Positions 4,205 to 32,373 of a DNA stretch of 32,373 nt are shown in pieces; the stretch's first letter is position 1; each line of letters starts with the position of its first letter. The notes beneath the pieces were generated by a model that was not told the origin of the DNA, did no database searches, and saw only the letters and a list, made by a program, of their open reading frames with translations. The stretch covers positions 1-32,373 of the forward strand of contig DUAT01000153.1 of NCBI GenBank assembly GCA_012960755.1. The letters run 5' to 3'. This DNA comes from Gammaproteobacteria bacterium (lineage in GTDB: Bacteria > Pseudomonadota > Gammaproteobacteria > Pseudomonadales > Azotimanducaceae_A). Position numbers and translations under genes: made by a program.

Positions 4205-5974
4205 ATGGATCCTGACAAGACATCAGTTTTGGAAATCTGGCTGTCTAATCTCTGCCGGATGTTACCGGATGTTCAGCGTGCCATTATCATAGGTGATTTT
4301 GCAACTGCAGGTGATCAGACACCGGACGTCAGCTGGCCGGATTCAGCCTTTGATCCCCGCGACTTATATACCGCCGCAAAACTTGCAAGCAATAGAAAGT
4401 CACCGGTTTTCAATTTTCGGAAGCAGGGTGATCAGACCCTTGATCGCAGTGAGATCCTGGTGGCCTATCCGCTGAACATCAAAGATAAGGTGTTTGGTAC
4501 TGTCTCAATTTCAATGTTTGGCTCACCCAGGCAGCAGGATGTCATCTTACAATTGCTTGATTGGGGGCTTTCTTGGTTAAAGCTTGTTCTACAGCAAAAA
4601 GATAGCAAGCTTGACCTCCAACAACCGGAAATTGGTGTGCTGCAGGCTTGTGTACATACCGACCAGGTTCGATCATCAGCCTATGCAGTGGCAACCGAAA
4701 TAGCCATGACTGCGCAGTGCCAGCGAGTCAGTCTTGGATTGCTGGAGGGTAAAGAGATCAAATTAATGGGCATCTCTAATACCCCTATCTTTGATATAAG
4801 GGCTTCACTGACTCATAGTATTACCGATGTCATGGTAGAAACGCTGGGGAAAGGGATCCCGGTGTTCTACAACAAGGATCAGTCAGGGGAAGCTTCGGAT
4901 GCCAGTGCACACTGGCAACTATCTCAGGCTCAGGGTGTGGATCACATTTTTTCCATACCAATCATCGATGCAAATCAGGTGATAGGGGTCCTGGTGCTGG
5001 AAAGAAACCTAAAAGCGTTTTCTTCCACCGAGCCGGGAATTGATCAGTCCTTAGTTGATTTGTTGGCAAGGCTGTTTGTCCTGAAGCAGCAGTTGGATAT
5101 GGGATTCATTGAAAAGTGTAAACGCAAGCTGGGTTTGGTTGCCGGGCAATATCTGGGAGCAGGTTCGATTCGGTTAAAACTGCTGACCATTGGTGTGCTT
5201 GCCATGTTTTCGTCCATCATGCTGGTGCCGGGTGAGTTTAGAGTGTCTTCGACCGCTGTTCTGGAAGGTCGAGTTCAGCAGGCGATTGTTGCCCCTTTTG
5301 ATGGTTATGTGGCGAAGGCTATCGCCCGGGCGGGGGACCTGGTGCAAAAGAATGATATCATTGCGGAACTGGACGATCATGAATTGCGTCTCGAACAAAT
5401 GCGCTGGCTCAGCCAGAAAGATGAATTTACGAAACAATATCGCACCGCCCTTGCCGGTCTGGATCATTCTGCAGTGCGCATCTCCCAGTCACAGATAGCC
5501 CAGGCCGACGCGCAGCTTGAACTGGTTGCGAGTCGCCTGGAAAGAGTGAAACTGGTTTCTCCCCTGGATGGGATAATCATATCCGGCGATCTTAGTCGCT
5601 TATTGGGGATTCCTCTGGAGAGAGGTCAGCTGCTGTTCGAGATTGCTCCACTGAATGAGTATCGGCTGGTTCTCAATGTTGATGAACAGGATATTGTGTA
5701 CGTGCGACAGGGCCAGACTGGAACCTTAACCCTGGCTGCGTTCCCCCGTCGTGAAATACCGTTTACGGTCCGTAAAGTTGCGGTACTTCATCAGCAGGTT
5801 GATGTCGCCATTACTTTTCGAACTGAAGCAAGTATAGAGTCTGATGTAATTGACCTGCGTCCCGGGATGCAAGGGGTGGGTAAGATCAACATTGATAAAA
5901 GAAACTACCTGTGGATCTGGACTCGCAGCGCACTCGATTGGCTCAGGCTCAAAATGTGGGCATGGCTTCCATGA
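4205..5974 (+). CDS. GAF domain-HlyD membrane fusion protein
   Basis: This 589-residue protein has an N-terminal half with two GAF-like segments (about 10-130 and 150-295), presumably cytoplasmic. A single transmembrane helix follows (about 323-342, LKLLTIGVLAMFSSIMLVPG). The periplasmic part is a HlyD/biotinyl-lipoyl adaptor: the hairpin start VAPFDGYVAKAI (~362), a short coiled coil, the second lipoyl half RVKLVSPLDGIIISGD (~447) and a beta-barrel domain. Adaptors normally bridge an inner-membrane transporter and an outer-membrane channel; fusing one to a GAF sensor is uncommon and suggests export gated by a cytoplasmic signal. The stop overlaps the start of the next gene (ATGA at 5971-5974), so the two are probably co-translated. 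No ABC transporter or TolC gene is present in the window. Confidence 0.82.
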   Translation: MDPDKTSVLEIWLSNLCRMLPDVQRAIIIGDFATAGDQTPDVSWPDSAFDPRDLYTAAKLASNRKSPVFNFRKQGDQTLDRSEILVAYPLNIKDKVFGTVSISMFGSPRQQDVILQLLDWGLSWLKLVLQQKDSKLDLQQPEIGVLQACVHTDQVRSSAYAVATEIAMTAQCQRVSLGLLEGKEIKLMGISNTPIFDIRASLTHSITDVMVETLGKGIPVFYNKDQSGEASDASAHWQLSQAQGVDHIFSIPIIDANQVIGVLVLERNLKAFSSTEPGIDQSLVDLLARLFVLKQQLDMGFIEKCKRKLGLVAGQYLGAGSIRLKLLTIGVLAMFSSIMLVPGEFRVSSTAVLEGRVQQAIVAPFDGYVAKAIARAGDLVQKNDIIAELDDHELRLEQMRWLSQKDEFTKQYRTALAGLDHSAVRISQSQIAQADAQLELVASRLERVKLVSPLDGIIISGDLSRLLGIPLERGQLLFEIAPLNEYRLVLNVDEQDIVYVRQGQTGTLTLAAFPRREIPFTVRKVAVLHQQVDVAITFRTEASIESDVIDLRPGMQGVGKINIDKRNYLWIWTRSALDWLRLKMWAWLP

Positions 5975-8127
5975 ACACCACTGAAGCACAGGTCGAGGAG
6001 GATCAAGCCCAGTGGCAAGAGCTTGCATCATTGTCACCTGTGTTGAAAGCAGGCCTGGGAATATATCGCCATCAATACCGAGGGGTCACCTGGTTTTTAC
6101 TGACAGACCCACTCAATGGACTGCATTTTAGATGCAGCGTTGACGCCTATCGTCTGCTCATGTTGCTGGATGGCCAGACAACAGTTGCCGATGCGTTTCA
6201 AAAAATCTCACCCGCTCAGGATGCAAGAACGTCTTTGCAGGTTGAAGTGATGCGATTATTCTCGTTGCTACATCAATCGAATCTTCTGCAGGGCGGCTAC
6301 TTTGACGCAGATGATGAGGGCCATGCACCCAAAAAACCCGTTGCAAAGTGGGCGCAGGTGTTGATGCGGCCCCTGGCCATTCCGATCCCTATGCTGGATC
6401 CTGACCACTTTCTGACATGGCTGATATCGTCAATTCGTGTGTTCTTCTCAAAGCCGGTTCTCTTGATCTGGCTGTCAATTATTGTCTGGGCCGTGTCTCA
6501 GGCAGCGATGTCATGGCCGGAACTGGTCGTTCACTGGAATGCCAGATTTCTGGATACCCAGAACTTGTTGCTACTACTACTGGTTTATCCATTGGTCAAA
6601 GCGCTGCACGAACTTGGACATGGCCTTGCTGTCAAGAACTGGGGAGGAGAAGTGCATGAAATGGGCATATTGCTGTTGGTGTTTGTACCGGTTCCCTACG
6701 TTGACGCCTCTGCGAGCAACGCCTTTTACAAAAAACACAGGCGCATGCTTGTAGATGCCGCGGGCATTATGGTCGAGTTATTTCTTGCCGCTACAGCCAT
6801 GTTGTTGTGGTCGGACATGGACCCGGGTCTGATTCGTGACCTGTGTTTCAATGTCTTATTCATAGGTGGCGTTTCTACGGTATTGTTTAATGGCAACCCG
6901 CTGTTGCGCTTCGACGGTTACTACGTACTTTCTGATCTGCTGGAGATACCAAATCTTGCTTCGAGGTCAAGCCAGTATCTTGGCTATTTGTTGCGCAGAT
7001 ATGTGTTGGGCTTAGAACTTGCGAAATCTCCAGTCACTGCCAGAGGCGAAAAGGGCTGGTTTATTTGCTATGGATTATTGGCCGGGACCTATCGCATTTT
7101 TATCAGTTTTTCTATCGCGATGTTGGTGGCCAGCCAGTATTTTATTTTTGGAATTCTTCTTGCCGCCTGGTTTGTGTTCATGCAGATCCTGTTGCCCTTT
7201 GCCCGGTCAATCTACCGATTGGTGCCAGACATTGTCCACCAGGGTCGGTTGATACGTGTCGGTGTGATCGTCCTCATTTTTACCGGCGTGTTGTTAAATC
7301 TGCTGTTTGCCAGGTCTTTTGAGCACAGCAGTTTTGCTGAAGGTATAGTGGTTGTACCGAAGGATTCTCATATCAGGGCAGGTATCAATGGCTTTGTAAG
7401 ACAGGTTCTGGTCGAAAATGGTCAATGGGTTGAGGTCGGTGAACTTCTGTTTCGATTGGAAAACCGGGAAATTAGTGCGCGTATTAACATCGCCAAAGCC
7501 CGGCTACAGGAGCAGCGGGCAAGGCACAGTCGCGCATTGAGCTTAAACAAGCTGAAGGCCGCTATCCTGAAGCTCGAGCTTCAGGAGATACAGGCTGAAC
7601 TTGATGAATTGCAACGACAGAATGACGAGATGGATGTGGTTAGCCTGAGATCAGGACGGTTTACCACGAGACAAGCGTCTGACTCGACGGGTCGGTACGT
7701 CGCGAAAGGTGACCTTTTGGGATATGTTGTTGATTTGTCTCAAGTTCAAGCGAGGGTTGTGATTACCCAGGACCAGCTGGACCAGGTCAGCCATAATACC
7801 CGTTATATTGACGTCCGGCTTGCGAGTGAGGCATCCCGGTTGCTTCGGGGAGAGTTGCTGCAGGCGGTACCATTAGCCATCAAACAATTGCCAAGCCGGA
7901 TGCTAGGGAGTCAAAGTGGTGGACGGATCCCGGTCGATGCTCGTGACCAGGATGGCCTGATGACGATGGACCCTGTCTTTCAACTGGATATCGGGCTGCC
8001 ATCCCGGTCGCAGGGTGACTATCTTGGCCAAAGCCTTGTGGTTCGATTCGTCCATTTTCGGGAACCGATTGCCGATCGGCTCTTTCAAATGCTACGAGGA
8101 CAGGTACTGGAACGATTTGATCTCTAA
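5971..8127 (+). CDS. PqqD-like / M50 metallopeptidase / lipoyl-domain membrane protein (peptide zinc metalloprotease-like)
   Basis: About 718 residues from the ATG in the ATGA overlap; GTG 5911 or ATG 5962 are in-frame alternatives. Domains in order: a PqqD-like winged-helix segment (SVDAYRLLMLLDGQTTVADA, then LLHQSNLLQGG); a polytopic membrane region with the zinc motif HELGH (His at ~213) and the second M50 motif NPLLRFDGYY; more membrane helices; then a HlyD-like lipoyl/coiled-coil domain (GINGFVRQVLVENGQW onward). M50-type proteins of this architecture sit in peptide export or processing loci. PqqD-like domains commonly bind leader peptides of ribosomal peptides. The likely role is therefore recognition and membrane processing or export of a peptide or protein. 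It is coupled to the preceding GAF-HlyD gene. The substrate is unknown; the LEPR-motif protein downstream is one candidate. Confidence 0.85.
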   Translation: MNTTEAQVEEDQAQWQELASLSPVLKAGLGIYRHQYRGVTWFLLTDPLNGLHFRCSVDAYRLLMLLDGQTTVADAFQKISPAQDARTSLQVEVMRLFSLLHQSNLLQGGYFDADDEGHAPKKPVAKWAQVLMRPLAIPIPMLDPDHFLTWLISSIRVFFSKPVLLIWLSIIVWAVSQAAMSWPELVVHWNARFLDTQNLLLLLLVYPLVKALHELGHGLAVKNWGGEVHEMGILLLVFVPVPYVDASASNAFYKKHRRMLVDAAGIMVELFLAATAMLLWSDMDPGLIRDLCFNVLFIGGVSTVLFNGNPLLRFDGYYVLSDLLEIPNLASRSSQYLGYLLRRYVLGLELAKSPVTARGEKGWFICYGLLAGTYRIFISFSIAMLVASQYFIFGILLAAWFVFMQILLPFARSIYRLVPDIVHQGRLIRVGVIVLIFTGVLLNLLFARSFEHSSFAEGIVVVPKDSHIRAGINGFVRQVLVENGQWVEVGELLFRLENREISARINIAKARLQEQRARHSRALSLNKLKAAILKLELQEIQAELDELQRQNDEMDVVSLRSGRFTTRQASDSTGRYVAKGDLLGYVVDLSQVQARVVITQDQLDQVSHNTRYIDVRLASEASRLLRGELLQAVPLAIKQLPSRMLGSQSGGRIPVDARDQDGLMTMDPVFQLDIGLPSRSQGDYLGQSLVVRFVHFREPIADRLFQMLRGQVLERFDL

Positions 8128-8353
8128 CCCAATGTAGCTGGATGCTCCGCTGTTGCTGCTACCTGTTAAATTGCCCCGCTTAAACCCTGATTTTACCCGT
8201 CTGTCACTAGTGTTAATTTCATCTCGGCATTAATTGATAAGCTGCCTACATAGGACTGTGTGGGCGTTCGGTAGTTGTTTGAAACACGGATTCCTATCAG
8301 ATTGCTCCTCTCAAGTGGGGGAATGTTTTTAATGGATTGCGGGGTTTGAAAAA

Positions 8354-9727
8354 TTGAACACAATATGGAGACGATCAGCATATGCCCGGGCAGTGTGGCT
8401 ACTGCTGGTGTGCTCGTTCAGCTCTTCAGCCGACGAGTTTCCGGCGGTGGACTGCGTGATCAGCCCCTACCAGATCGTAGAACTAGGTAGTGCAGTACCC
8501 GGTGTTATTGATCGCATTTCTGTTGAACGCAGTGACTTCGTCAGAAAGGGCCAGATTATTGCGGAGCTGGCATCGGGTGTTGAGCGTGCCGCTGTTGCAC
8601 TGGCCAGGGCACGCGCCCAGGTAGAGCCAGAGATCAATGTCTGGCAAATCAATGTTGAATTTGATGAAAAACGCAAAGAGCGGATCCATTCGCTGTATGA
8701 CAACAAAGTTGTCTCCGATGACAACAAGGATGAAGCAGATCGCGAAGCCAAACTCTCGACCTGGAAGCTTCAACAGGCCCGGGATCTGAAGAAAATACGT
8801 CAACACGAACTTGAGCGCGCGGTGGAACAACTGAAGCAAAAGACGATTGCCTCACCCATTGATGGTTTTATCCTCGAGAAATACAAGCTGGTTGGAGAGT
8901 ATGTCGAAGATCAGGCGATCGTCAGAATTGCGCAACTGGATCCCCTGAATGTTGAAGCCATTGTACCTATTGAACTGTTTGGCAAGATCCCCGTTGGCAT
9001 GCTTGCCGAGGTACATCCAGAGACATTGTCTGCCGGAGTAAGAACGGCTCTTGTGACCGTGGTAGACCGAACTGGAGATGCTGGCAGCGGCACTTTTGGT
9101 GTACGCCTCGAAATGCCGAACCCTGCACTTGAGTTACCTGCAGGGCTGAAATGCGACTTACGATTTGTCGAGAACTCAGTGCCCGAAGCAACAGCCGGTA
9201 GCATGCCGAGTAAACTATCGAATGCATGGGAGCAGATATCAGGATCAGCTCGCGCGTCCGCTAACAAAGAATCGAATATTCCGAAAAAACAGATCATTGA
9301 AGCATTGTCCGATAGCGAATTGGGACTCGTTGAGCTGGACCCCAAAACACCACAGGGGGCGTCAAAGTCCCCGAGACCTTCGGCCCGTGTATATGCAGAA
9401 CCATGGGCTGGTGCTCAAAAGAAACTGGCAGATCAACTGGAGATGCTGATGGCGTCTTCCGTAAACCAGACACTGGATAAAAGTGGAGCAGCGAGTGCTG
9501 ATGGCACTGACGTCGGTGGCTCGAGCAAGAAATTCCACCCTATCCAACTGCCTCCCGTAACGAAAAAGAAAGAAACCAGTACTTCAGTTGAACCTGAGCT
9601 TGAATCGACGTCAACGTCTGAGATTGACGAAGACAGTGCCGTCGTGGTCATCGATCAAAACTTCAGTCAATCCACTTTGAGATCAGCGAATGGACTGGAT
9701 TCGAAAATTATTACAACACCGCGATAA
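8354..9727 (+). CDS. Periplasmic adaptor (HlyD/RND MFP type) with long disordered C-terminal tail
   Basis: A 457-residue protein starting at TTG. The N-terminus is a Sec-type signal (AVWLLLVCSFSSSA, cleavage near 26). Residues ~35-275 form a compact adaptor: first lipoyl half VELGSAVPGVIDRI, a hairpin of about 80 residues, second half TIASPIDGFILEKYKLVGEY, then a barrel domain. The last ~180 residues are Ser/Thr/Glu/Lys-rich with no recognisable domain and end SKIITTPR; such a tail is unusual for an adaptor. The gene follows the M50-lipoyl gene after a 226-bp gap in which I see no gene. The LEPR-motif gene begins inside its last 38 bp. Likely third adaptor of the same export module. Confidence 0.8.
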   Translation: MNTIWRRSAYARAVWLLLVCSFSSSADEFPAVDCVISPYQIVELGSAVPGVIDRISVERSDFVRKGQIIAELASGVERAAVALARARAQVEPEINVWQINVEFDEKRKERIHSLYDNKVVSDDNKDEADREAKLSTWKLQQARDLKKIRQHELERAVEQLKQKTIASPIDGFILEKYKLVGEYVEDQAIVRIAQLDPLNVEAIVPIELFGKIPVGMLAEVHPETLSAGVRTALVTVVDRTGDAGSGTFGVRLEMPNPALELPAGLKCDLRFVENSVPEATAGSMPSKLSNAWEQISGSARASANKESNIPKKQIIEALSDSELGLVELDPKTPQGASKSPRPSARVYAEPWAGAQKKLADQLEMLMASSVNQTLDKSGAASADGTDVGGSSKKFHPIQLPPVTKKKETSTSVEPELESTSTSEIDEDSAVVVIDQNFSQSTLRSANGLDSKIITTPR

Positions 9728-10076
9728 TTGGTCCGAGCGCACCCCTGCAACATCTTCGTCCCACTTTGAACGCCTGGAACCACGTGTAGTGCTGTCGGCA
9801 GACTTTCTGCCGGGTTTGATGGACCAGGATTTTGGCGATCTGCCTGAGCGACTGGACGGGTCGTCTGACCTTCAGCCGTTAGTTTCGTTTCTCTCCTCAC
9901 TGTTGGAGAAGCAAACGATTAAGGATTCTTTTTTTACACTACGACCGGGCTACCAACAGCTAATTGATACCGTGCAATCATCGCCTGATGGCGCGGTTTA
10001 CAGCGGCAGGCAATGCAAGCAGCCTAAACCCGAACTTCATTCATTGCAGGCGATAATCGAAAGTAGAGTCCAATAA
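9690..10076 (+). CDS. Small LEPR-XLL motif protein
   Basis: A 128-residue protein carrying FERLEPRVVLSADFLPG at residues 26-42. This matches the LEPR-XLL motif, normally found near the N-terminus of very long, repetitive bacterial surface or secreted proteins, where it is presumed to direct sorting. Here the protein stops about 90 residues after the motif and has no repeats, no signal peptide and no transmembrane helix. The gene overlaps the adaptor gene by 38 bp and lies 27 bp before the hybrid kinase gene, so it is firmly inside the operon. It may be a dedicated small substrate, an accessory factor, or the surviving N-terminus of a former long protein. The frame continues cleanly to TAA. 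Confidence 0.65.
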   Translation: MDWIRKLLQHRDNWSERTPATSSSHFERLEPRVVLSADFLPGLMDQDFGDLPERLDGSSDLQPLVSFLSSLLEKQTIKDSFFTLRPGYQQLIDTVQSSPDGAVYSGRQCKQPKPELHSLQAIIESRVQ

Positions 10077-10103: not shown

Positions 10104-13100
10104 ATGATCAATGTACTATCATTACCATTGCGATACATGCGGGCTCACAGCACCAAGGCCTGGGTAGCGCTTGGCCAGGCGGGTATGATTGTCAGTCTGA
10201 TTCTGACCGCTGCAATTCTCGGTTTGTTACCCGACAGAGATGGCATGTTGAGGGAAAGCTACACAGCCGTCGGCGAAGCGGTGGCGGCGAACAGCTCTGT
10301 ATTTCTCACGCGCTCGGATATTCGGCGTATGGAAGCCAACCTGGCGATCATAGTAGAACGTAATTCGAAAATACAATCCGCTGGTATTCGGACTGAACAA
10401 GGGCTTCTCGTCGTGGAGATTGGTAACCATGAATCACAATGGGCTACGTCAGAGGATACTGATGCGAATAGTACGCAGGTTTACGTCCCTATCTGGCAAG
10501 GTAGTGCCAAATGGGGGCAGGTTGAACTACGTTTTCCGCCTTTGCGAGCAGCGGGTTGGAAAGGCTGGTTCTCGCATCCGCTGGTCAACCTGATAGTATT
10601 TTTAACCCTGAGTAGCTTCCTGCTGTTCTTTTTTTACCTGGGCAGAATTCTTAAGCAACTTGACCCATCCCAGGCGGTACCTGATCGAGTCCGGTCTGCC
10701 TTTGATACGTTGGCCGAAGGGCTACTGGTAATTGATGCAAGGCAAAACATTGTCCTGGCCAATGCCGCATTTGCGTCAATCGTGGACCGCACTCCGCAGG
10801 AACTGATGGGCCATCAGGCTGGCAACTTTCCCTGGGCAAACATGAATGCTGATCCTTTTGACAACGATCAGGCGCCATGGACGCTCGCTCTGAAAGAAGG
10901 CACGCAGCAAACGAATACTCGCCTGCGACTCGAACTTGTTCGAGGCAGAAGCTGGACATTTATTGTGAATTGTTCACCGGTTCAGTCGGAAGCTGGCAAG
11001 GCAAGTGGGGTGTTAATTAGCTTTGATGATGTGACTGAGCTTGAAGGAATAGAAATTGAACTACAAAAATCAAAGGAGGAGGCCGATGCCGCGAATCAGT
11101 CCAAGAGTGATTTCCTTGCAAACATGAGTCACGAGATTAGAACACCAATGAATGCCATACTGGGGTTTACAGATGCATTGAGACGTGGTTTCGACAAGAA
11201 TGGTGCTGAAAGCCGGAAGTACCTGAACACCATTTATTCAAGTGGTACTCACTTGCTCGACTTGATAAACGACATACTTGACCTGTCGAAAGTGGAGGCA
11301 GGCCGTATCGAGATTGAGACCGTGCCTTTCGGTCCTCACCTTTTGGTCCATGAAATCGTGAAAATCATGACAGTCAAAGCTGCAGAAAAAGACGTTTTTA
11401 TCCAGTACGAACCTGATGGTCCGCTGCCGGTGCAGATTGAATCTGATCCGGGTAAGATCCGCCAGATACTCACGAATCTGATCGGAAATGCAATCAAGTT
11501 CACGCAGAGTGGTGGAGTCACAGTAGCAACAAAATTTGAGACCAAAGAGAGTCGCTCCCTGATCAGCTTCGAAGTAAAAGACACAGGTATTGGCATGACC
11601 AAGGAACAGACGGGTATGGTGTTTGAGTCATTCGTGCAGGCTGACAGTTCGATTACTCGTCGCTTTGGTGGCACCGGGCTTGGACTCGCCATTAGTAAGC
11701 GTTATGCGGAGGCACTTGGCGGCGATATCCTGGTCAAGAGTGTGCCCGATGAAGGCAGTGTGTTTACCTGCACCATTGAAGTGTTAACCAGTCCCGATGT
11801 TGAGATTCTTGAACCTCAGCAACTGTTGTTAGATGACGAGATCGTAATAGAGGAGTCCGGAATGAGTTGGGTCTTTCCGACTGCCAGGATTCTGGCTGTC
11901 GATGATGGCGAAGAAAACATTGCTTTGCTGGGACTGGTATTACGGGAGCTTAATCTTGAAGTTGATACGGCCGTAAACGGGAAAATAGCAGTCGAGATGA
12001 CCGAGAGCCACAGCTACGACCTGGTACTGATGGACGTTTCAATGCCGATGATGGATGGTTATGAGGCAGTTGGACGAATGCGAAAACAGGGGCTTAAAAT
12101 TCCTATCATTGCCCTGACAGCACACGCAATGAAGGGTGCTGAAGAGAAGTGCCTGGCTGCTGGCTATTCCGGTTATATGACTAAACCGATAGATATTGAA
12201 AAGCTGACTGCCGATTTGGCGAAGAACCTTAATGCCGAATCTGTTGTGGATTCAGAAAATACGTGGAAAAATTCACACAAACAGCCTCGGGGGCATAACA
12301 AGGAGGTTATTCGATCATCACTGCTTACTGCCAACCCTAAAATTTCTGAATTGGTTGCAAGATTTATTATTCGCCTGGATGAGCAGCTAGGTCTTGTTGA
12401 ACAGGCTTTTGACCAGGGTGATTTTGAAGAAGTGGCGCGTATCAGCCACTGGTTAAAGGGGTCGGCGGGCAGCATTAGGTTTCACGAGTTTACGGAACCA
12501 GCTAAAAAGCTTGAAGATGCAGCGCAAAGAGAGGATTTCACCGTTGTTAGTGAACTATTGCATGTCCTGCAGGACATGGCCGGTCGGTTACAACCAATGA
12601 AAACGAAGCCTGGTCGTGAAAGAAGAAATCGACCCATCGAGAATATGTCAAGTAGTGAGAGTGCCGGACAGGCTGGAGTCGACCGCAAAAACGATAGGCT
12701 TGTCGAATTGCATGCAAGGAGCCCAATTTATTCCAGTTTGCACTTGAAGAATGAAAAACTTCGCGAACTCGTTGGGCAGTTCGTTACCAAACTCGAAAAA
12801 CAACTGGTTGTAATGGAGCAGGCTCGTGAAGACAGGAACTATGACCAAATGACGTTGCTCAGCCATTGGCTTAAGGGTTCGGCTGGCAGCGTTGGATTTC
12901 AGGAATTCACGGTCCCCGCCGCCGAACTTGAAATTGCCTCTGGAGAAAGCGATGATGAAAGAATCGATTCATTGGTCGTTGAAATTAATAATTTATTCAA
13001 TAGAATTGAGTTACTTCCTGCGCTTCAAACCGTATCAGGATACCCTGGTAAAAAATCGGGGTCAGGTTTCGAGTTCGGATCAGAGGAAAGGAACAGACAA

Positions 13101-13115
13101 TTAACAACAAACTAA
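10104..13115 (+). CDS. Hybrid sensor histidine kinase with REC and two tandem Hpt domains
   Basis: A 1003-residue kinase with RBS AGAGGGA 7 bases before ATG. Layout: TM1 (~22-43), a ~110-residue periplasmic loop, TM2 (~160-180), PAS (~195-315), HisKA with H343 in MSHEIRTPMN, HATPase (N-box NLIGNAIKF, DTGIGM, GTGLGLAISKR), REC (~595-705) with D644 in LMDVSMPMMDG, then two Hpt domains with H782 and H921. Both Hpt motifs read HWLKGSAGS and the surrounding ~60 residues are clearly similar, so the second arose by duplication. ArcB/BarA-type kinases usually have one Hpt. The gene sits directly after the LEPR gene and 50 bp before the REC-EAL gene, a likely phosphorelay target. Confidence 0.92.
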   Translation: MINVLSLPLRYMRAHSTKAWVALGQAGMIVSLILTAAILGLLPDRDGMLRESYTAVGEAVAANSSVFLTRSDIRRMEANLAIIVERNSKIQSAGIRTEQGLLVVEIGNHESQWATSEDTDANSTQVYVPIWQGSAKWGQVELRFPPLRAAGWKGWFSHPLVNLIVFLTLSSFLLFFFYLGRILKQLDPSQAVPDRVRSAFDTLAEGLLVIDARQNIVLANAAFASIVDRTPQELMGHQAGNFPWANMNADPFDNDQAPWTLALKEGTQQTNTRLRLELVRGRSWTFIVNCSPVQSEAGKASGVLISFDDVTELEGIEIELQKSKEEADAANQSKSDFLANMSHEIRTPMNAILGFTDALRRGFDKNGAESRKYLNTIYSSGTHLLDLINDILDLSKVEAGRIEIETVPFGPHLLVHEIVKIMTVKAAEKDVFIQYEPDGPLPVQIESDPGKIRQILTNLIGNAIKFTQSGGVTVATKFETKESRSLISFEVKDTGIGMTKEQTGMVFESFVQADSSITRRFGGTGLGLAISKRYAEALGGDILVKSVPDEGSVFTCTIEVLTSPDVEILEPQQLLLDDEIVIEESGMSWVFPTARILAVDDGEENIALLGLVLRELNLEVDTAVNGKIAVEMTESHSYDLVLMDVSMPMMDGYEAVGRMRKQGLKIPIIALTAHAMKGAEEKCLAAGYSGYMTKPIDIEKLTADLAKNLNAESVVDSENTWKNSHKQPRGHNKEVIRSSLLTANPKISELVARFIIRLDEQLGLVEQAFDQGDFEEVARISHWLKGSAGSIRFHEFTEPAKKLEDAAQREDFTVVSELLHVLQDMAGRLQPMKTKPGRERRNRPIENMSSSESAGQAGVDRKNDRLVELHARSPIYSSLHLKNEKLRELVGQFVTKLEKQLVVMEQAREDRNYDQMTLLSHWLKGSAGSVGFQEFTVPAAELEIASGESDDERIDSLVVEINNLFNRIELLPALQTVSGYPGKKSGSGFEFGSEERNRQLTTN

Positions 13116-13165
13116 CCGGCACGGATCGCAACTTTTCGGGGCAATCAGGTAACCCCTATGATTCG

Positions 13166-14869
13166 TTGATCATGATGGTCGACGATGAACCGATATTGAT
13201 GGCGGTTGTGAAAGAGTTTCTCCATGAGGCTGGTTACCGCAATTTCAATCTGGTGGAGGATTCGACAAAAGCTCTGGGGAAACTCAGAGAATATCAACCT
13301 GATATCTTATTGCTTGATCTGGTAATGCCTGAGGTTGACGGCTTTGAAATTCTACAGGCAGTCCGGGCCGATCCGGTAACGCGGCACTTGCCTGTCGTTG
13401 TTCTAACATCCTCAGGTGATGCAGAAACCAAGCTCAGGGCACTGGAAATGGGCGCTACTGACTTTCTGGCGAAGCCAGTCGATAGCAGTGAGTTGATACT
13501 ACGATTGCGAAACACGCTCACCGTCAAGGCTTACCAGGATCAGCTTGCGCATTACGATACCCTGACTGGATTACCAAACAGAGAACAGTTCACGAACAAG
13601 CTTACCTGGGCGATTCAGCATGCTCAACAAACGCGTCAACCAGCTGGTGTTCTTAACATCGAGCTGGAGCGCTTTAAGTATGTTAATGACACACTGGGGC
13701 CCAGGATTGGAGACAAGCTGTTGGCGCTGGTCGCATCCCGGTTGACGCATTGTATTGCAATGGATAATTATCTCACTGAAACTGAACGAATTATTCCTTC
13801 TGGTAGTGTTTCAAGGCTTGGCGGCAGCGAGTTTTCCGTGATACTCCACGAAATAGCTCATATTGAAAAACTAATATATGTAGCACGCCGGTTAACCCAG
13901 TCGATGATTGACCCATTCTACGTTGACGAACACGAGATATTCCTCACCGCGAGTATCGGTATCGCACTATATCCACTAGACGGCGACGCACCCGACGAGC
14001 TAATGAAAAATGTAGCAGTCGCAACAGATTATGCGAAACGAAATGGTCGCAGCAGCTACCAGTTTTATACCAGGGATCTTAACGCCAGCGCTGAGGGACT
14101 GTTGAAGCTGGAGACCGACCTTCGAAAGGCGATTGAAAGAAACCAGCTTGAAATCTACTATCAACCGAAAATTAATGGCGGTACTGGCAGGGTGTCCGGG
14201 ATGGAGGCGTTGATACGTTGGCACCGGAGCGAAAACGATATGGTATTTCCCGGTGATTTCATACCCGTCGCTGAACAGATGGGAGAAATTGTTCCCATGG
14301 GTAACTGGATTTTCAACGAGGTGTGCCGACAATACCGTGAATGGCTGTTAGACGGCATGGAGGCACTGAAGGTTTCTGTAAATGTGTCAGGCTATCAGTT
14401 TTCGGATAAGGATCTTTGTAGTTCCCTGGAGGTTGTACTCAGCGAACACAAGATGGATGCGGCCAATCTGATGCTGGAAATAACAGAGACGGTACTGATG
14501 GGTGATGTGGAAGGTAGCATTCAGACACTGCACGACATCAAAGATCTTGGCCTTTCGCTTTCCATCGATGATTTTGGAACAGGTTACTCGTCCCTGAGCT
14601 ACCTGAAACTACTCCCGATTGAAGAATTGAAGATCGACAGGTCCTTTATTGTTGATTTGAATGAGAGTAAGAGTGACGCCGCGATCGTTCGGGCCATCAT
14701 TGCGCTGGCAGACGGTCTTGAGCTTGACCTGGTAGCGGAAGGCGTCGAAACCGAACAGCAACTAAAATTCCTGAACGACAATGGCTGTGAGACGATACAA
14801 GGTTATTACTATAGCAAGCCGCTGACGGCTGACCAGTTCAGACAGTTTGTGCAGCAGCGTAATCAGTGA
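13166..14869 (+). CDS. Response regulator REC-GGDEF(degenerate)-EAL, probable c-di-GMP phosphodiesterase
   Basis: A 567-residue regulator. The REC domain (1-120) has the acidic pair VDDEP and phosphoacceptor D51 (LLLDLVMPEVDG). The GGDEF domain (~125-300) carries GGSEF at 219-223: the substitution in the active-site motif argues against cyclase activity, though it may still bind GTP. The EAL domain (~315-560) is intact, with GMEALIRW, the Asp pair in SIDDFGTGYSS and VAEGVETE, so phosphodiesterase activity is expected. The start is uncertain: TTG 13166 or ATG 13172 begins unusually close to the REC core, and the frame stays open upstream into the kinase gene. The upstream hybrid kinase is the obvious phosphodonor. 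Confidence 0.9.
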   Translation: MIMMVDDEPILMAVVKEFLHEAGYRNFNLVEDSTKALGKLREYQPDILLLDLVMPEVDGFEILQAVRADPVTRHLPVVVLTSSGDAETKLRALEMGATDFLAKPVDSSELILRLRNTLTVKAYQDQLAHYDTLTGLPNREQFTNKLTWAIQHAQQTRQPAGVLNIELERFKYVNDTLGPRIGDKLLALVASRLTHCIAMDNYLTETERIIPSGSVSRLGGSEFSVILHEIAHIEKLIYVARRLTQSMIDPFYVDEHEIFLTASIGIALYPLDGDAPDELMKNVAVATDYAKRNGRSSYQFYTRDLNASAEGLLKLETDLRKAIERNQLEIYYQPKINGGTGRVSGMEALIRWHRSENDMVFPGDFIPVAEQMGEIVPMGNWIFNEVCRQYREWLLDGMEALKVSVNVSGYQFSDKDLCSSLEVVLSEHKMDAANLMLEITETVLMGDVEGSIQTLHDIKDLGLSLSIDDFGTGYSSLSYLKLLPIEELKIDRSFIVDLNESKSDAAIVRAIIALADGLELDLVAEGVETEQQLKFLNDNGCETIQGYYYSKPLTADQFRQFVQQRNQ

Positions 14870-26483: not shown

Positions 26484-28655
26484 ATGTCAGAGCAGGTATC
26501 ATTTGGTGAACTCACCATAGAAAAGGTCCTTTATGACCTGGTGCGGGATCAGATTACTTCGGGGATCGACATAGAATCAGCAGTGGTCTGGTCCGGATTA
26601 GAGGCTATCCTGAAAGAGATGATGCCTCTCAACAAAGACCTGCTCGCCAGGCGTGATGAATTTCAATCCAGCATAGATGCCTGGCACAAAGCCCGTGCAA
26701 CCAAACCTCACAATCCAGAAGAGTATGAAGCTTTTCTACGGGAAATTGGATATCTGTTGCCTGAGGGAGATGATTTTGAGATTGAAACTGTTAATGTCGA
26801 TGACGAAATTGCGCTGCTGGCAGGTCCCCAGTTGGTTGTGCCTGTGATGAATGGGAGATTTGCACTTAAGGCGGCCAATGCCCGCTGGGGCAGTTTGTAC
26901 GATGCACTGTATGAGACGGATGTTATTCCTGAAACAGCCGGAGCAGAGAAAAGTAATGGATACAACCCGGCCCGAGGTGAGAAAGTCATCGAGTATGGCA
27001 ATAAATTTTTGAACGAAAACGCGTCTCTCGCAGATCAGCATTATGAAGATGTTGTTCAATATGCTATCAAAGATGACGCACTTCATCTGACTCTGGCTGA
27101 TGGGTCGGCTACCAGTTTGAAGGACTCAACCCAGTTTGTTGGTTGGCTCGGCGATGACGCTGATCCCTCAGGCGTATTGTTAGTCAGCAACGGATTACAT
27201 ATGGAAATTCAGATAGACCGACACGCACCCATAGGAGAAGACACCCCGGCAGGGGTAAAAGATATCCTGATGGAATCTGCAGTTTCTACGATTCAAGACT
27301 GTGAGGATTCTGTTGCAGCGGTTGATGCTGAAGATAAGTGTGTTGTTTACAGTAACTGGCTGGGCCTCATGAAGGGGGATCTTGCGGAGGAATTTGAGAA
27401 GGGCGGGAGTGTTATTCGTCGCAAACTTAACCATGATCGGGTCTACCAAGGAGCTGACGGCGAAGAACTGACGCTTCACGGCAGAAGCTTGTTACTGGTT
27501 AGAAACGTGGGTCATTTAATGACGACAAATGCTGTGATGCTCAACGGTGAGGAGATTCCTGAGGGAATACTGGACGGTTTGATCACCAGTCTTTGTGCGA
27601 TGCATGACCTGAAGAGTACCGGACCCATCAGGAATTCCCGCAAGGGTAGTATTTATATCGTCAAACCCAAGATGCATGGCCCTGATGAGGTTGAATTCGC
27701 TGTCGATCTGTTCACACGAATAGAAGATGTACTGGGCCTGGCCAGAAATACTGTGAAAATTGGTATTATGGACGAGGAACGGCGCACAACACTTAACCTG
27801 AAAGAGTGTATTCGAGTGGCAAAAAAGCGGGTGATATTTATCAACACGGGCTTCCTGGATCGCACTGGTGATGAAATCCATACGAGTATGGAAGCGGGCG
27901 CCATGGTTAGGAAGACCTTAATGAAGCAGGAAGCCTGGATCGAAGCGTACGAAGACTGGAATGTGGACGTCGGTCTGGAAACTGGCCTTAAGGATAAGGC
28001 CCAGATAGGCAAAGGTATGTGGGCCATGCCGGATGAAATGGCTCAAATGATGGAGGCGAAAATCAATCATCCAGAAGCGGGTGCAAATACTGCCTGGGTA
28101 CCATCCCCAGTAGCCGCGACATTGCATGCCATGCATTATCACAAGGTGGATGTTGCCAGTCGTCAGGAGGAATTGAAGTCCAGAACCAGAGCGAGCCTTT
28201 CTGCGTTGCTCACCATACCCGTACTGGGAGGCACCAACCTGTCGGCCGACGAAGTCCAGAATGAATTGGACAATAACGCTCAGGGCATACTGGGTTATGT
28301 TGTTCGCTGGATTGACCAGGGTGTAGGTTGCTCAAAGGTGCCGGATATTAACGATGTTGAATTAATGGAGGATCGCGCAACACTTAGAATCTCCAGTCAA
28401 CATATTGCCAACTGGATGCATCACGGTTTGTGTTCAGAAGAACAGGTTATGGAAACGCTCAAGCGCATGGCTGCCGTGGTTGACTTGCAGAATGCGGACG
28501 ATGAGGACTATCGAAACATGACGCCCGGGTTTGGTGACAGTGTTGCCTTTCAGGCAGCCTGTGATCTGGTGTTTAAAGGTATTGACCAACCTAACGGGTA
28601 TACTGAACCGATTCTGCATGCACGTAGAAGAGAAGCAAAGAGAGTATATGGTTGA
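26484..28655 (+). CDS. glcB: Malate synthase G
   Basis: A 723-residue monomeric enzyme condensing glyoxylate with acetyl-CoA to malate in the glyoxylate bypass; length and motifs match form G throughout. Active-site residues are visible: R340 in [10 protein letters not shown]431 in GIMDEERRT, and D459 in [26 protein letters not shown] (271-285) is typical of the family. The start ATG follows GGAG(CAGG), a good RBS. No isocitrate lyase or glycolate oxidase gene is adjacent, so it is probably transcribed alone, supporting growth on acetate, fatty acids or glycolate. Confidence 0.97.
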
Positions 28656-28749: not shown

Positions 28750-31653
28750 ATGATGACTTCGAAGAAACAGACAATACTTATTATCGAGGACGAGGCGCTT
28801 ATTGCCCGCGAGCTGAAGAGTCGTCTGACGCAAATGGGTTATGAGGTTGTCGGTATTGCGTTTGGCCTGGAGGCCATCGAGTTGGCTGCAGATACCCAGC
28901 CTGATTTATTGCTAACAGATATTCATTTAAAAGATGGGGTCGATGGTATTGAAGTCGCCCAGGTTATTCAGGCCGAGCGGGGTGTACCGGTCGTCTTTTT
29001 GACTGCCTACTCGGATGAGGAGACTGTGTCACGGGCTAAGGAAGTAACGCCCTACGGTTACATCATCAAGCCTGTCGAGAATCGGGAACTGCAGATCGTA
29101 ATAGAGATGGCGCTGTACAAATTTTCCATTGAAAGAGAACTTAGGAAAACCCAACAGCTTTTACAAACCGCACTGACATGTATCGGTAACGGACTGGTTT
29201 TCGTTAACCAGTGGGGTGATATCAGCGACCTGAATAGTGACGCTGAAACAATATTAGAAACAAACTTGGAAGTGGCCAGAGATCGTCCCTGGCCGGAAGT
29301 GTTTTCTTTGTTGGGCAATTCTGTGCAAGCCAAGATAAATGCCGCCTTGCTAAGTAGTGATGTAACAAAGCTGGCTCCCTTTGTGATTAGCGCTGTTGGA
29401 AAAATTCCAAAGTTGGTTGATGGCATTGTTGGTCCCATGCACGATGGAGGCGTGTTGATTTTAAGGGAGTTGACCGAAATCGCTGACCCCATCGAGATGC
29501 TGCCAACCACACAGGAGCTGATGTTACAGGTCGGACCCGACCGCTTGACGCCAAGTGAATCTTCAATGTGTCAGCTTCTGGTATCTTTCAAAACTAAAGG
29601 CAAGCCCGTGGTCGTTGAGGAAGTCTCCCAGGTGCTTAACCAGATGTTGCGTTCGACCGACCTCGTTAGCATTTACTCGCCAGCGCATCTATCAGTCAGT
29701 ATGCCTTATACATCGGTTGTGGAAGGTGAGCTTATCGCTGATTCAGTACTAAGTTCGCTCAAGAAGCATTTTTCGCTAACAAATCCAAGTATCAGCATCG
29801 GGCTTTCATATAGTTCGCCTGGCGACCAGCAGCCATTCGAGCTTTTTCGGCGTGCCGAGTGGGCATTGAGTGTGGCGAAGGACTCAGGCGGTGACAGGGT
29901 AATCGTCTGGAGTGATGATGTTGAGAATAGTTTGCAAATTGCCAGTACGGAGTCTGAAAAACAGCGCGAATATCATAACCTTGTTCTGATGTGGAATGTT
30001 GTAAGTGTGGTTGCCCGGACGACCAGTCTTGAAGAAATGAGCAAGAAAATCTGCCACCACCTGCTTCGATCCTTCGACTTCGACCAGGTGGCTGTACTTG
30101 AATCTGAAAATAGTACAATTTGGGCAATCTCTGGTGCAGTAAAAGGCGTTGATGATTTTAAAGGTATGCAAGATATCGCCCTGTCAAAAATGCACTTTTT
30201 AAAAGTCGGTGAGTTGCTGGCATCAAATAGCAATTACGTTAACGCCGGAAAAGTCCATCTGTTTCGACTGAGTGCCGAGAAGCTGGTGTTTATTACTGGC
30301 GGGGAATTGTTACAAAGTGATGTGGAATTTCTGGAAACGTTGGTAAATTACGTCGCCTCGGGATTGTCCCGGTTTGATCTACCTGCTGAAGCAACTACCA
30401 GTGCTACCGGGGAATCTCATTTCCTCTATCAGTCTGCGATTATGAAGAGTCTCGTCGAGAGTATCGAGATGGTGGGACCTACAGAAGCGACGGTGCTTAT
30501 CTCAGGAGAATCAGGCACGGGCAAGGAGTTGATTGCCAAAACCATTCATGAAAATAGCAAACGAAAAGACAAGCCCTATATCATTGTTGATTGCGGCGCC
30601 ATTGTCGGCAGCCTTATCGAAAGTGAACTGTTTGGCCACATCCAAGGGTCCTTTACCGGCGCAGATAAGAATTTCTCCGGGAGACTCAAAGAAGCTGATG
30701 GCGGAACAGTTTTACTGGACGAAGTTGGAGAACTACCACTCGATGTGCAGGTTAAATTGCTTCGTTATGTTCAGGAACGACAACTCGTCCCAGTCGGTTC
30801 GAATCGATATGAATTAGTTGATACCAGAGTAATAGCAGCGACGAATCGTGATTTGCAGGCGCTGGTGAGAGAGGGTAAATTTCGCGAGGATCTGTATTAC
30901 CGCTTGAATGTATTTGCTATTGATTCGCCGCCGCTTCGCGCTCGTCAGGGCGACATAATGTTGTTGGCGAATCACTACCTCAAAATCTACTCTTCCCAAT
31001 ACAGCAAGAACCTTCTGGGATTTACAGAGAATGCCGAGAAGGCGCTGGTCGAGCATAGCTGGCCCGGCAATATTCGGGAACTTATCAATGTTATCAATCG
31101 TGGCTTAATTCTCTGCAAAGATTCCAGGTTAAGTTCTATACACCTTGGTCTTTTTCCGGCAGAATCGAATGAGATTCCAACAAGGCGTGCCAAGGACCAG
31201 AGTCCTGAGAGCCACTTACAGACTCTGCTCAAACGAATGGTGGACAGTTGTATGGCGAATGTGAATGACTTGCCTCCTCTGGGTCGGTGGCTTGAAGAAG
31301 ACCTGATCAAGAAAAGCCTGGCTTTAAATTCTGAGGTACTCAATCGTGCTGCCCTGACCCTTAGGGTGCCTGAATCAACACTTCGGCGTAAAGTCTCTCG
31401 CTTGCAGGGTAGTCCCGGCATCAGAAACCCTGGTGGTCAGGCAGACTGGGAGATTCTCCAGACGATACTATTCGATTTGACTGTGCTGGCTCGTGATCGA
31501 GGTCAAACGGTACTGGATTTGGTGTCGTTTGCGCTTGTTCGGGAGTTGGAGCAGCGTTCTCTGAACAGGAAAGAAGCTTCAAGTTTGATGGGTGTTTCCC
31601 TGCCAACCTACCGGCGCCTGGTTGCCGAGGTCCCTTTGGAGCACGCTGTTTAG
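28750..31653 (+). CDS. Sigma-54-dependent response regulator with REC, degenerate GGDEF, GAF, AAA+ and HTH segments
   Basis: A 967-residue enhancer-binding protein, about twice the NtrC length. REC (8-122) has D57 in LLTDIHL. A PAS-like segment follows (~130-245). Residues ~262-390 have the GGDEF fold pattern (RSTDLVSIYS, SISIGLSYSS, RRAEWALSVAKDSGGDRVIVW) but SPAHL stands where GGDEF should be, so no cyclase activity is expected. A GAF-like segment spans ~405-545. The AAA+ domain (~555-800) has Walker A GESGTGKE, Walker B GGTVLLDEVGEL, and GSFTGA in the sigma-54 loop (consensus GAFTGA). Two helix-turn-helix candidates lie at ~845-885 (NRAALTLRVPESTLRRKV) and ~938-960 (KEASSLMGVSLPTYRRLV). 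Its likely target is the -24/-12 promoter immediately downstream. Confidence 0.88.
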   Translation: MMTSKKQTILIIEDEALIARELKSRLTQMGYEVVGIAFGLEAIELAADTQPDLLLTDIHLKDGVDGIEVAQVIQAERGVPVVFLTAYSDEETVSRAKEVTPYGYIIKPVENRELQIVIEMALYKFSIERELRKTQQLLQTALTCIGNGLVFVNQWGDISDLNSDAETILETNLEVARDRPWPEVFSLLGNSVQAKINAALLSSDVTKLAPFVISAVGKIPKLVDGIVGPMHDGGVLILRELTEIADPIEMLPTTQELMLQVGPDRLTPSESSMCQLLVSFKTKGKPVVVEEVSQVLNQMLRSTDLVSIYSPAHLSVSMPYTSVVEGELIADSVLSSLKKHFSLTNPSISIGLSYSSPGDQQPFELFRRAEWALSVAKDSGGDRVIVWSDDVENSLQIASTESEKQREYHNLVLMWNVVSVVARTTSLEEMSKKICHHLLRSFDFDQVAVLESENSTIWAISGAVKGVDDFKGMQDIALSKMHFLKVGELLASNSNYVNAGKVHLFRLSAEKLVFITGGELLQSDVEFLETLVNYVASGLSRFDLPAEATTSATGESHFLYQSAIMKSLVESIEMVGPTEATVLISGESGTGKELIAKTIHENSKRKDKPYIIVDCGAIVGSLIESELFGHIQGSFTGADKNFSGRLKEADGGTVLLDEVGELPLDVQVKLLRYVQERQLVPVGSNRYELVDTRVIAATNRDLQALVREGKFREDLYYRLNVFAIDSPPLRARQGDIMLLANHYLKIYSSQYSKNLLGFTENAEKALVEHSWPGNIRELINVINRGLILCKDSRLSSIHLGLFPAESNEIPTRRAKDQSPESHLQTLLKRMVDSCMANVNDLPPLGRWLEEDLIKKSLALNSEVLNRAALTLRVPESTLRRKVSRLQGSPGIRNPGGQADWEILQTILFDLTVLARDRGQTVLDLVSFALVRELEQRSLNRKEASSLMGVSLPTYRRLVAEVPLEHAV

Positions 31654-31813: not shown

Positions 31814-31829
31814 TGGCATGAAATTTGGA
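31814..31829 (+). promoter_or_regulatory. Candidate sigma-54 (-24/-12) promoter
   Basis: TGGCATGAAATTTGGA matches TGGCAYRNNNNTTGCW at every defined base except the C at -12, which is G. It lies between a sigma-54 activator gene and the repeat-protein gene. Transcription from it would start near 31840, giving a leader of about 145 bases. The mismatch in the -12 GC pair would be expected to weaken it. Confidence 0.5.
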
Positions 31830-31985: not shown

Positions 31986-32373
31986 ATGAGTAAAATTGGA
32001 TATTTTTTGGTCACCGTACTCGTCGGAGTACTACTAGTTACAACTCAAATTTCAATTGCGGCGACAGGAATAATCGGCCCGGAGGATCAGTCCGTGCAGC
32101 CCAGTATCGCCAGGTATTTATGGGATGAGGAAAACCCAGACAGTGCAAAACCTCGACAGCATCTGGTCAGGTACCTCTGGGATGAGGAAAACCCAGATGA
32201 AGTCGAACCTCCGCAGCGTTTAGTCAGGTATCTCTGGGACGAGGACAATCCGGGCAATATCGAATCGTCACAACGTGTAGTCAGGTATCTCTGGGACGAA
32301 GACAATCCGGACAATATCGAATCGTCACAACGTGTAGTCAGGTATCTCTGGGACGAAGACAATCCGGACAATA
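31986..32373 (+). CDS. Secreted 19-residue RYLWDE-repeat protein, 3' end beyond the window
   Basis: The start ATG follows AGGGGAT, a good RBS. Residues 1-26 form a Sec signal peptide (IGYFLVTVLVGVLLVTTQIS, then IAA). A ~16-residue linker leads into tandem 19-residue units, consensus RYLWDE(E/D)NPD-x4-P/S-xQ-x2-V. Four full units and the start of a fifth are visible before the window ends. The units are acidic, each with one Trp and one NPD/NPG. I do not recognise a family. The mature chain should be periplasmic or extracellular; the regular acidic repeat suggests a structural, binding or multi-copy peptide precursor role, but nothing fixes this. Upstream is a candidate sigma-54 promoter and activator gene. 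Confidence 0.8.
   Translation, partial: MSKIGYFLVTVLVGVLLVTTQISIAATGIIGPEDQSVQPSIARYLWDEENPDSAKPRQHLVRYLWDEENPDEVEPPQRLVRYLWDEDNPGNIESSQRVVRYLWDEDNPDNIESSQRVVRYLWDEDNPDN
32112..32373 (+). repeat. 57-bp direct tandem repeats inside the secreted repeat gene
   Basis: Units begin at 32112, 32169, 32226, 32283 and 32340 (57 bp each, in frame). Units 3 and 4 differ at only two bases, and the 34 visible bases of unit 5 are identical to unit 4, while units 1 and 2 are more diverged. The array continues past the window end. Confidence 0.95.

Follow-up and report, generated by a model that had tools for sequence, protein, structure and literature searches.

The tandem RYLWDE array that closes the 32,373-nucleotide stretch analysed here (the window) very probably belongs to a protease precursor encoded in a signalling gene cluster, a reading of the gene's anatomy that we put at a probability of about 0.93. 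The window itself stops short of any propeptide or S8 region; by homology and synteny its ORF most likely encodes the N-terminal part of a secreted S8 (subtilisin-like) protease precursor, and very probably not a protein made of repeats alone. A recurrent Trp-motif repeat is thereby placed on the propeptide side of a protease in a two-component/cyclic di-GMP cluster, and the case is a caution that an ORF of repeats at the end of a sequence may be a piece of a larger gene.

A tandem array at the window end

The array ORF and its parts, all on the forward strand, are:

31986..32373 (+; ORF coordinates 31986-32372), array ORF of 129 codons, still open at the window end
31986..32060 (+), Sec-type signal sequence of about 25 residues, hydrophobic, judged by eye
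32112..32168 (+), repeat unit 1, RYLWDEENPDSAKPRQHLV
32169..32225 (+), repeat unit 2, RYLWDEENPDEVEPPQRLV
32226..32282 (+), repeat unit 3, RYLWDEDNPGNIESSQRVV
32283..32339 (+), repeat unit 4, RYLWDEDNPDNIESSQRVV
32340..32373 (+), repeat unit 5, truncated by the window end

The first-pass annotation had claimed a Sec signal peptide followed by in-frame 57-bp units encoding RYLWDE(E/D)NPD, and both are borne out: a hydrophobic signal sequence opens the ORF by eye, and RYLWDE starts at 32112, 32169, 32226, 32283 and 32340, a spacing of exactly 57 bp that gives four complete 19-residue RYLWDE(E/D)NP units and a partial fifth. Tandem Repeats Finder reported two overlapping stretches, 32121-32245 (81% matches) and 32217-32373 (97%). 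The gradient that had been proposed, with near-identical later copies and diverged earlier ones, is also present. Unit identity rises toward the 3' side from 65% (units 1 and 4) through 74% (1 and 2) and 96% (3 and 4) to 100% over the 33 shared bases compared between units 4 and 5, in line with the suggested recent expansion on that side. Comparison of units 1 and 2 gave three synonymous and no amino-acid changes in the ten core codons, against one synonymous and five amino-acid changes in the nine linker codons; the RYLWDE repeat is therefore coding rather than a chance pattern. Several relatives likewise end within repeats at contig ends, which makes an assembly break at the window end likely.

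The RYLWDE unit had no Pfam or NCBIfam match at E 0.001, as the earlier claim that it belongs to no known family would have it, and Pfam at E up to 10 returned matches below the cut-off only. The arrays of the proteins scanned were likewise without a Pfam or NCBIfam match above cut-off. No description of the RYLWDE array or its gene module was found in the open-licence literature; within that literature and the Pfam and NCBIfam searches, the unit is undescribed and has no curated family.

In relatives the array precedes an S8 protease

A protein made of the repeats, as the sequence had first been read, is not what relatives show. There the array is an N-terminal extension of an S8 protease precursor, in the order signal sequence, flexible RYLWDE array, propeptide-like domain, S8 domain and C-terminal [YF]xW array. 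PF00082 scored above its cut-off of 21.8 in all three proteins scanned, with 168.9 bits for L133 (S8 domain E 2e-49), 172 for P0010 and 160.4 for P0011. The Asp, His, oxyanion Asn and Ser motifs were all four present in 23/23 S8-bearing sequences, a set defined by holding the D and H motifs, with partial sequences lacking them excluded. Thirteen of these 23 (for example L114, L118, L133, P0007 and P0010) finish in WVxxE, perhaps a signal for sorting or recognition; of the remaining ten, most reach a contig end or have no clear C-terminus.

Pfam I9 gave no match at E 0.001, and the L003 model places an alpha-beta domain before S8 at about residues 236-300, within a block (residues 231-300) of strands and helices at pLDDT 59-84. 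The top Foldseek matches of this model were ProN-Tk-SP (3afg, E 1.6e-22) and unprocessed pro-subtilisin E. The family resembles known S8 subtilases (PF00082, MEROPS S8; ProN-Tk-SP, PDB 3afg) in its S8 domain and catalytic motifs and, as modelled, resembles ProN-Tk-SP, the best fold match, in a propeptide-like alpha-beta domain ahead of S8. It differs from them in the RYLWDE array before the propeptide-like domain and the [YF]xW array after S8. AlphaFold models of the L003 protease (10 alignment rows, mean pLDDT 46) and of P0012 (2 alignment rows, mean pLDDT 29.5) gave the arrays no reliable structure.

Distribution of the unit and of the protease

With the 129-residue fragment as query, no relative appeared in genome contigs, viral contigs or plasmids, and solved structures gave a single match, at E 1.4. 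The protein search with the fragment returned one relative, 118 residues long and from a 661-base contig; it admitted lengths of 0.55 to 1.75 times the query, so full-length relatives lay outside its range. A longer tandem query recovered the array proteins P0003, P0004 and P0005, each a signal sequence followed by 8, 8 and 5 motif units, respectively, with differing linkers; by eye, a propeptide-like segment follows the array in P0003 and P0005, the latter labelled at source as Candidatus Azotimanducaceae bacterium. In genome G003, which supplies the contig of L003, the array forms the N-terminus of a 779-residue S8 protease. A region search of a large database gave seven proteins, six with S8 (P0007, P0009-P0013) and the partial P0008. 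Plasmids gave no match to the full L003/L133 protease at E 1e-60.

Searched as an exact DNA pattern in 390 genomes of the order, RYLWDE gave 17 matches in 16 genomes, with more than one in G003 only, against 33 for the reversed control. YLWDE was searched in 24 genomes selected by S8 matches or N-array fragments, where 31 of 37 matches lay inside protease or N-array ORFs and six elsewhere (control 21). Two of those six, L169 and L170, were considered as a stand-alone RYLWDE array elsewhere and had no array nearby. Such exact patterns miss variants like RYLWEG and RFMWED, and absence outside the family holds for this spelling only. A triple of [YF]xW motifs at six-residue steps occurred in 2/299 genomes of the phylum (control 5), probably by chance; arrays with 12-residue steps escape this pattern, as does the GQVWNV form of G003 itself.

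Among 150 genomes of the family searched with the L133 protease, an S8 match at E 0.001 turned up in 78; in 17 the best one scored at least 457 bits and lay in an open frame of 779 residues or more. G012 and G094 hold orthologous fragments (L156, L159) beside the regulator.

A conserved neighbourhood of signalling genes

Two window genes lie upstream of the array ORF:

26484..28655 (+), malate synthase G, conserved upstream neighbour
28750..31653 (+), receiver, degenerate GGDEF and sigma54 AAA+ activator protein of 967 aa, directly upstream of the array ORF

The window probably comes from the Azotimanducaceae, the group named for P0005: its malate synthase G shares 73% identity with the L001 (K189A clade) and L003 proteins. 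The order malate synthase G, receiver-sigma54 activator, array gene is repeated in 10/20 related gammaproteobacterial loci. Immediately before the array gene, 11 of the 20 have the activator (L114, L116-L121, L123, L125, L131, L133), preceded by malate synthase G in ten of these, L117 being cut, and malate synthase G itself is directly upstream in five more (L124, L126-L129). As for the remaining four, L115 is preceded by some other gene, the L122 locus begins within the array gene, L130 encodes a different S8, and in L132 the regulator lies 5 kb upstream, separated by an opposite-strand gene for a different propeller sensor.

Downstream, a Reg_prop/Y_Y_Y histidine kinase comes next in 10/10 loci with more than 100 bases left (L114, L115, L118, L119, L121, L122, L123, L125, L129, L133), split into two ORFs in L118, cut by the contig end in L123 and preceded in L129 by a short ORF of the same Trp repeats. 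Seven loci (L114, L118, L119, L121, L123, L125, L133) have the activator directly before the protease gene and the sensor directly after it. The two sensors scanned with Pfam, those of L133 and L114, comprise Reg_prop repeats, Y_Y_Y, PAS, HisKA_2 and HATPase, and in both loci the following gene encodes a receiver-PAS-GGDEF-EAL protein. In L133 a single 18-kb contig holds all five genes (malate synthase G, regulator, array-S8, sensor and RR-GGDEF-EAL); the window ends before the sensor and GGDEF-EAL positions. A RiPP-like maturase or exporter was not among the recurrent genes as a constant neighbour, with flanking genes partly annotated.

The sensor also tracks the protease between genomes. A sensor query against 206 genomes matched 39 of them at 1e-100 or better, with an orthologue in 16 of the 17 array-S8 genomes, which are related so that the events are not independent. 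G111, where the protease lies on a 4-kb contig, has only a 34% sensor relative. Conversely, a sensor orthologue was present with no full array-S8 seen in G138, G037, G103 and G001, with contig ends in the last three.

Two loci, each a single assembly, adjoin a full-length sensor ORF where the protease is missing: L134 has a 161-residue ORF with a signal sequence and the C-array only, between malate synthase G and the sensor, and L137 a 299-residue N-array ORF followed by an out-of-frame WVEQE before the sensor. Loss, decay or misassembly would account for them, none being favoured, and the protease may be dispensable or decaying there.

Shorter S8 paralogues carry a C-terminal YxW tail and no N-array. 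A propeller gene lies near four (L130, L157, L166, L167), L166 and L167 having been known from both match lists before retrieval. The available flanks of L161, L162 and L163 hold no propeller sensor, and no propeller gene was found at L154, L155, L158, L160 and L164, where the contig ends on at least one side. L142-L147 were picked for having sensor and protease on one contig and so are no evidence of linkage. L165 and L168 are ordinary S8 proteins with neither tail nor sensor. A single YxW falls in the first 90 residues of 6/16 tail-type paralogues (shuffle p 0.018 to 0.088), and it is possible that this early motif is the ancestor of the array. Across the wider S8 set (L142-L147, L154-L167), tails consist of YLWANS-, YMWNNG- or FLWNDG-like hexapeptides, several of them ending in WVxxE.

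Selection on the Trp motifs

Motifs were counted in 28 proteins after near-duplicates and paralogues had been removed, with the window and P0002 included and L130, P0004, P0009, P0010 and the paralogues left out. The N-motif gave 190 matches, with majority residues [LVIM][AS]R[YF]LW[DE][DE][DE]. The proposed count of repeats in relatives gave 2 to 13 copies wherever the N-terminus is present, that is, in 27/28 proteins; L122, with none, starts at a contig end. N-spacings differ between proteins (15, 19, 13, 16, 20, 12 and others to 37 and beyond). The C-motif, G[YF][IL]W[NT], gave 253 matches, and among its 233 spacings 174 were 12, 27 were 6 and 13 were 13. The core recurs among unrelated linkers and spacings.

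Neighbouring N-units in eight loci differ over the six-codon core by 96 synonymous versus 20 non-synonymous codons, and neighbouring C-units in ten loci, three of them paralogues, by 274 versus 24; because units were chosen by motif, the non-synonymous counts are lowered by construction. Runs of constant period with no decayed unit (ten units 13 apart in L132, ten units 15 apart in L129) support selection on the motif free of this unit-picking bias. It is very improbable that the repeat is a functionless product of neutral slippage or assembly. The stop of the array at the window end and its varying copy number would fit such an origin, but the 190 core matches persist in 27/28 proteins despite unrelated linkers and spacings, and core differences are mainly synonymous (the 96 versus 20, biased by motif-picked units).

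Near-identical units whose core codons are kept while linkers change, a copy number of 2 to 13 and an adjacent sensor kinase would also suit an N-array cut at its repeats, either into signal peptides or as a sacrificial substrate that times activation. PopC of Myxococcus xanthus, a subtilisin-like protease with a role in C-signalling, offers a functional parallel. As described (PMC6434023), PopC resembles the array protease in being a secreted protease, and the two are set side by side by function alone, not by Trp-array architecture or operon. Residues after the core and unit lengths vary by lineage, so no constant processing site is visible, and the window units have no dibasic pair. We consider cutting at the repeats distinctly improbable.

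The presence of [YF]xW in both arrays of one polypeptide raises another reading, an intramolecular latch in which the N-array pairs with the C-array in the zymogen and keeps the protease stable or without activity until propeptide cleavage. The spacing of N-motifs differs between lineages, as it might in flexible tethers, while 201/233 C-spacings are 6 or 12, and the C-array of P0012 is modelled, at very low confidence, as short strands about every six residues. Against pairing, both regions are mostly net acidic (net charge negative in 6/7 N-regions and 7/7 C-regions of the array-type proteins computed), and the YxW-tail paralogues have a C-array with no N-array. The models (mean pLDDT 46 and 29.5) are uninformative either way. 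A latch is quite unlikely on this balance.

Candidate sigma54 control and paired receivers

One promoter element was noted upstream of the array ORF:

31814..31829 (+), candidate sigma54 -24/-12 element, TGGCATGAAATTTGGA, weak at 12 of 15 points

This site has a p of about 0.17 and is matched by a score of 12 on the reverse strand. The scan took in the window and 18 relatives, 19 regions in all, with the first start codon that each frame allows marking the edge of the upstream region. Sigma54-like sites of at least 13 of 15 points occurred in 14/19 regions, with p at most 0.013 in nine, and the forward strand outscored the reverse in 16/19, with ties in three. Loci without an adjacent sigma54 gene (L126-L129, L134) had sites as well; L126-L129 share nearly the same site and so are not independent. 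Taken together, sigma54 control in the family is probable.

One kinase may serve both operon receivers, as their 52-56% identity in 5/5 loci compared would fit. For the receiver of the window regulator, identity to two further receivers in the window is 26% and 35%.

A putative switch-controlled protease read by its neighbour

The closest known sensors are Reg_prop/Y_Y_Y proteins of the Bacteroides hybrid two-component type, which sense glycans. The operon kinase shares Reg_prop and Y_Y_Y followed by PAS, HisKA_2 and HATPase, and differs in that it is not a hybrid, its receivers lying in separate proteins (the sigma54 activator and the GGDEF-EAL protein), and in that its genetic partner is a protease.

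From these parts we propose a chain in which the operon kinase would phosphorylate the receivers of both the sigma54 activator and the GGDEF-EAL protein, and the sigma54 regulator would switch on the protease promoter. Upon autoprocessing, the disordered N-array would depart with the propeptide. The [YF]xW motifs might serve as multivalent ligands or tethers for the periplasmic propellers of the kinase, which would thereby read the presence or processing of the protease. As a constant downstream neighbour, the sensor is the best candidate partner. L134 and the tail-only paralogues point to the C-array as the likelier sensor-linked part, the N-array perhaps being an addition of this lineage. 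We rate the whole chain, a switch-controlled protease whose Trp arrays are read or tethered by the operon sensor, at somewhat short of even odds. That the sensor recognises a Trp array is a tentative proposal, less likely than not. The fuller version, a self-reporting S8 zymogen whose [YF]xW arrays are read by the propeller kinase with feedback on the sigma54 promoter and cyclic di-GMP, appears rather unlikely. The YxW-tail paralogues L161-L163 lacking a propeller sensor in the flanks available and five loci lacking an adjacent sigma54 gene speak against the mechanism, as do the protease-less L134 and L137, the weak sigma54 site of the window and the differing upstream arrangements of L115 and L132. 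If the sensor does read the arrays, a periplasmic kinase would sense its own operon's protease via multivalent short motifs, a testable case of propeller-sensor recognition beyond glycans.

The same kinase would fit a different role for the arrays, as multivalent arms that bind the cell surface, a polysaccharide or a protein substrate and position the protease, with the kinase sensing substrate or products. Trp/Tyr-rich acidic repeats of variable copy number would suit adhesion, and Reg_prop/Y_Y_Y sensors are known from glycan loci. The recurrent module genes include no carbohydrate-active one, and the N-array precedes a propeptide that would normally be shed on activation. Adhesion thus appears improbable. 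Metal binding by the unit, another of the first-pass suggestions, drew no specific support.

Other genes in the window

Rfam and tRNA scans of the window gave no match. A transposase with DUF772 and DDE domains occupies 157-1248. At 4205-10073 lie three HlyD-type genes, one with GAF and another with a daptide-protease/M50-like match that is weak; after them comes an oddly short ORF of 128 residues with a LEPR-XLL domain match. A hybrid histidine kinase with Hpt and then a receiver-GGDEF-EAL gene follow at 10104-14869, and theirs are the receivers 26% and 35% identical to that of the window sigma54 regulator.
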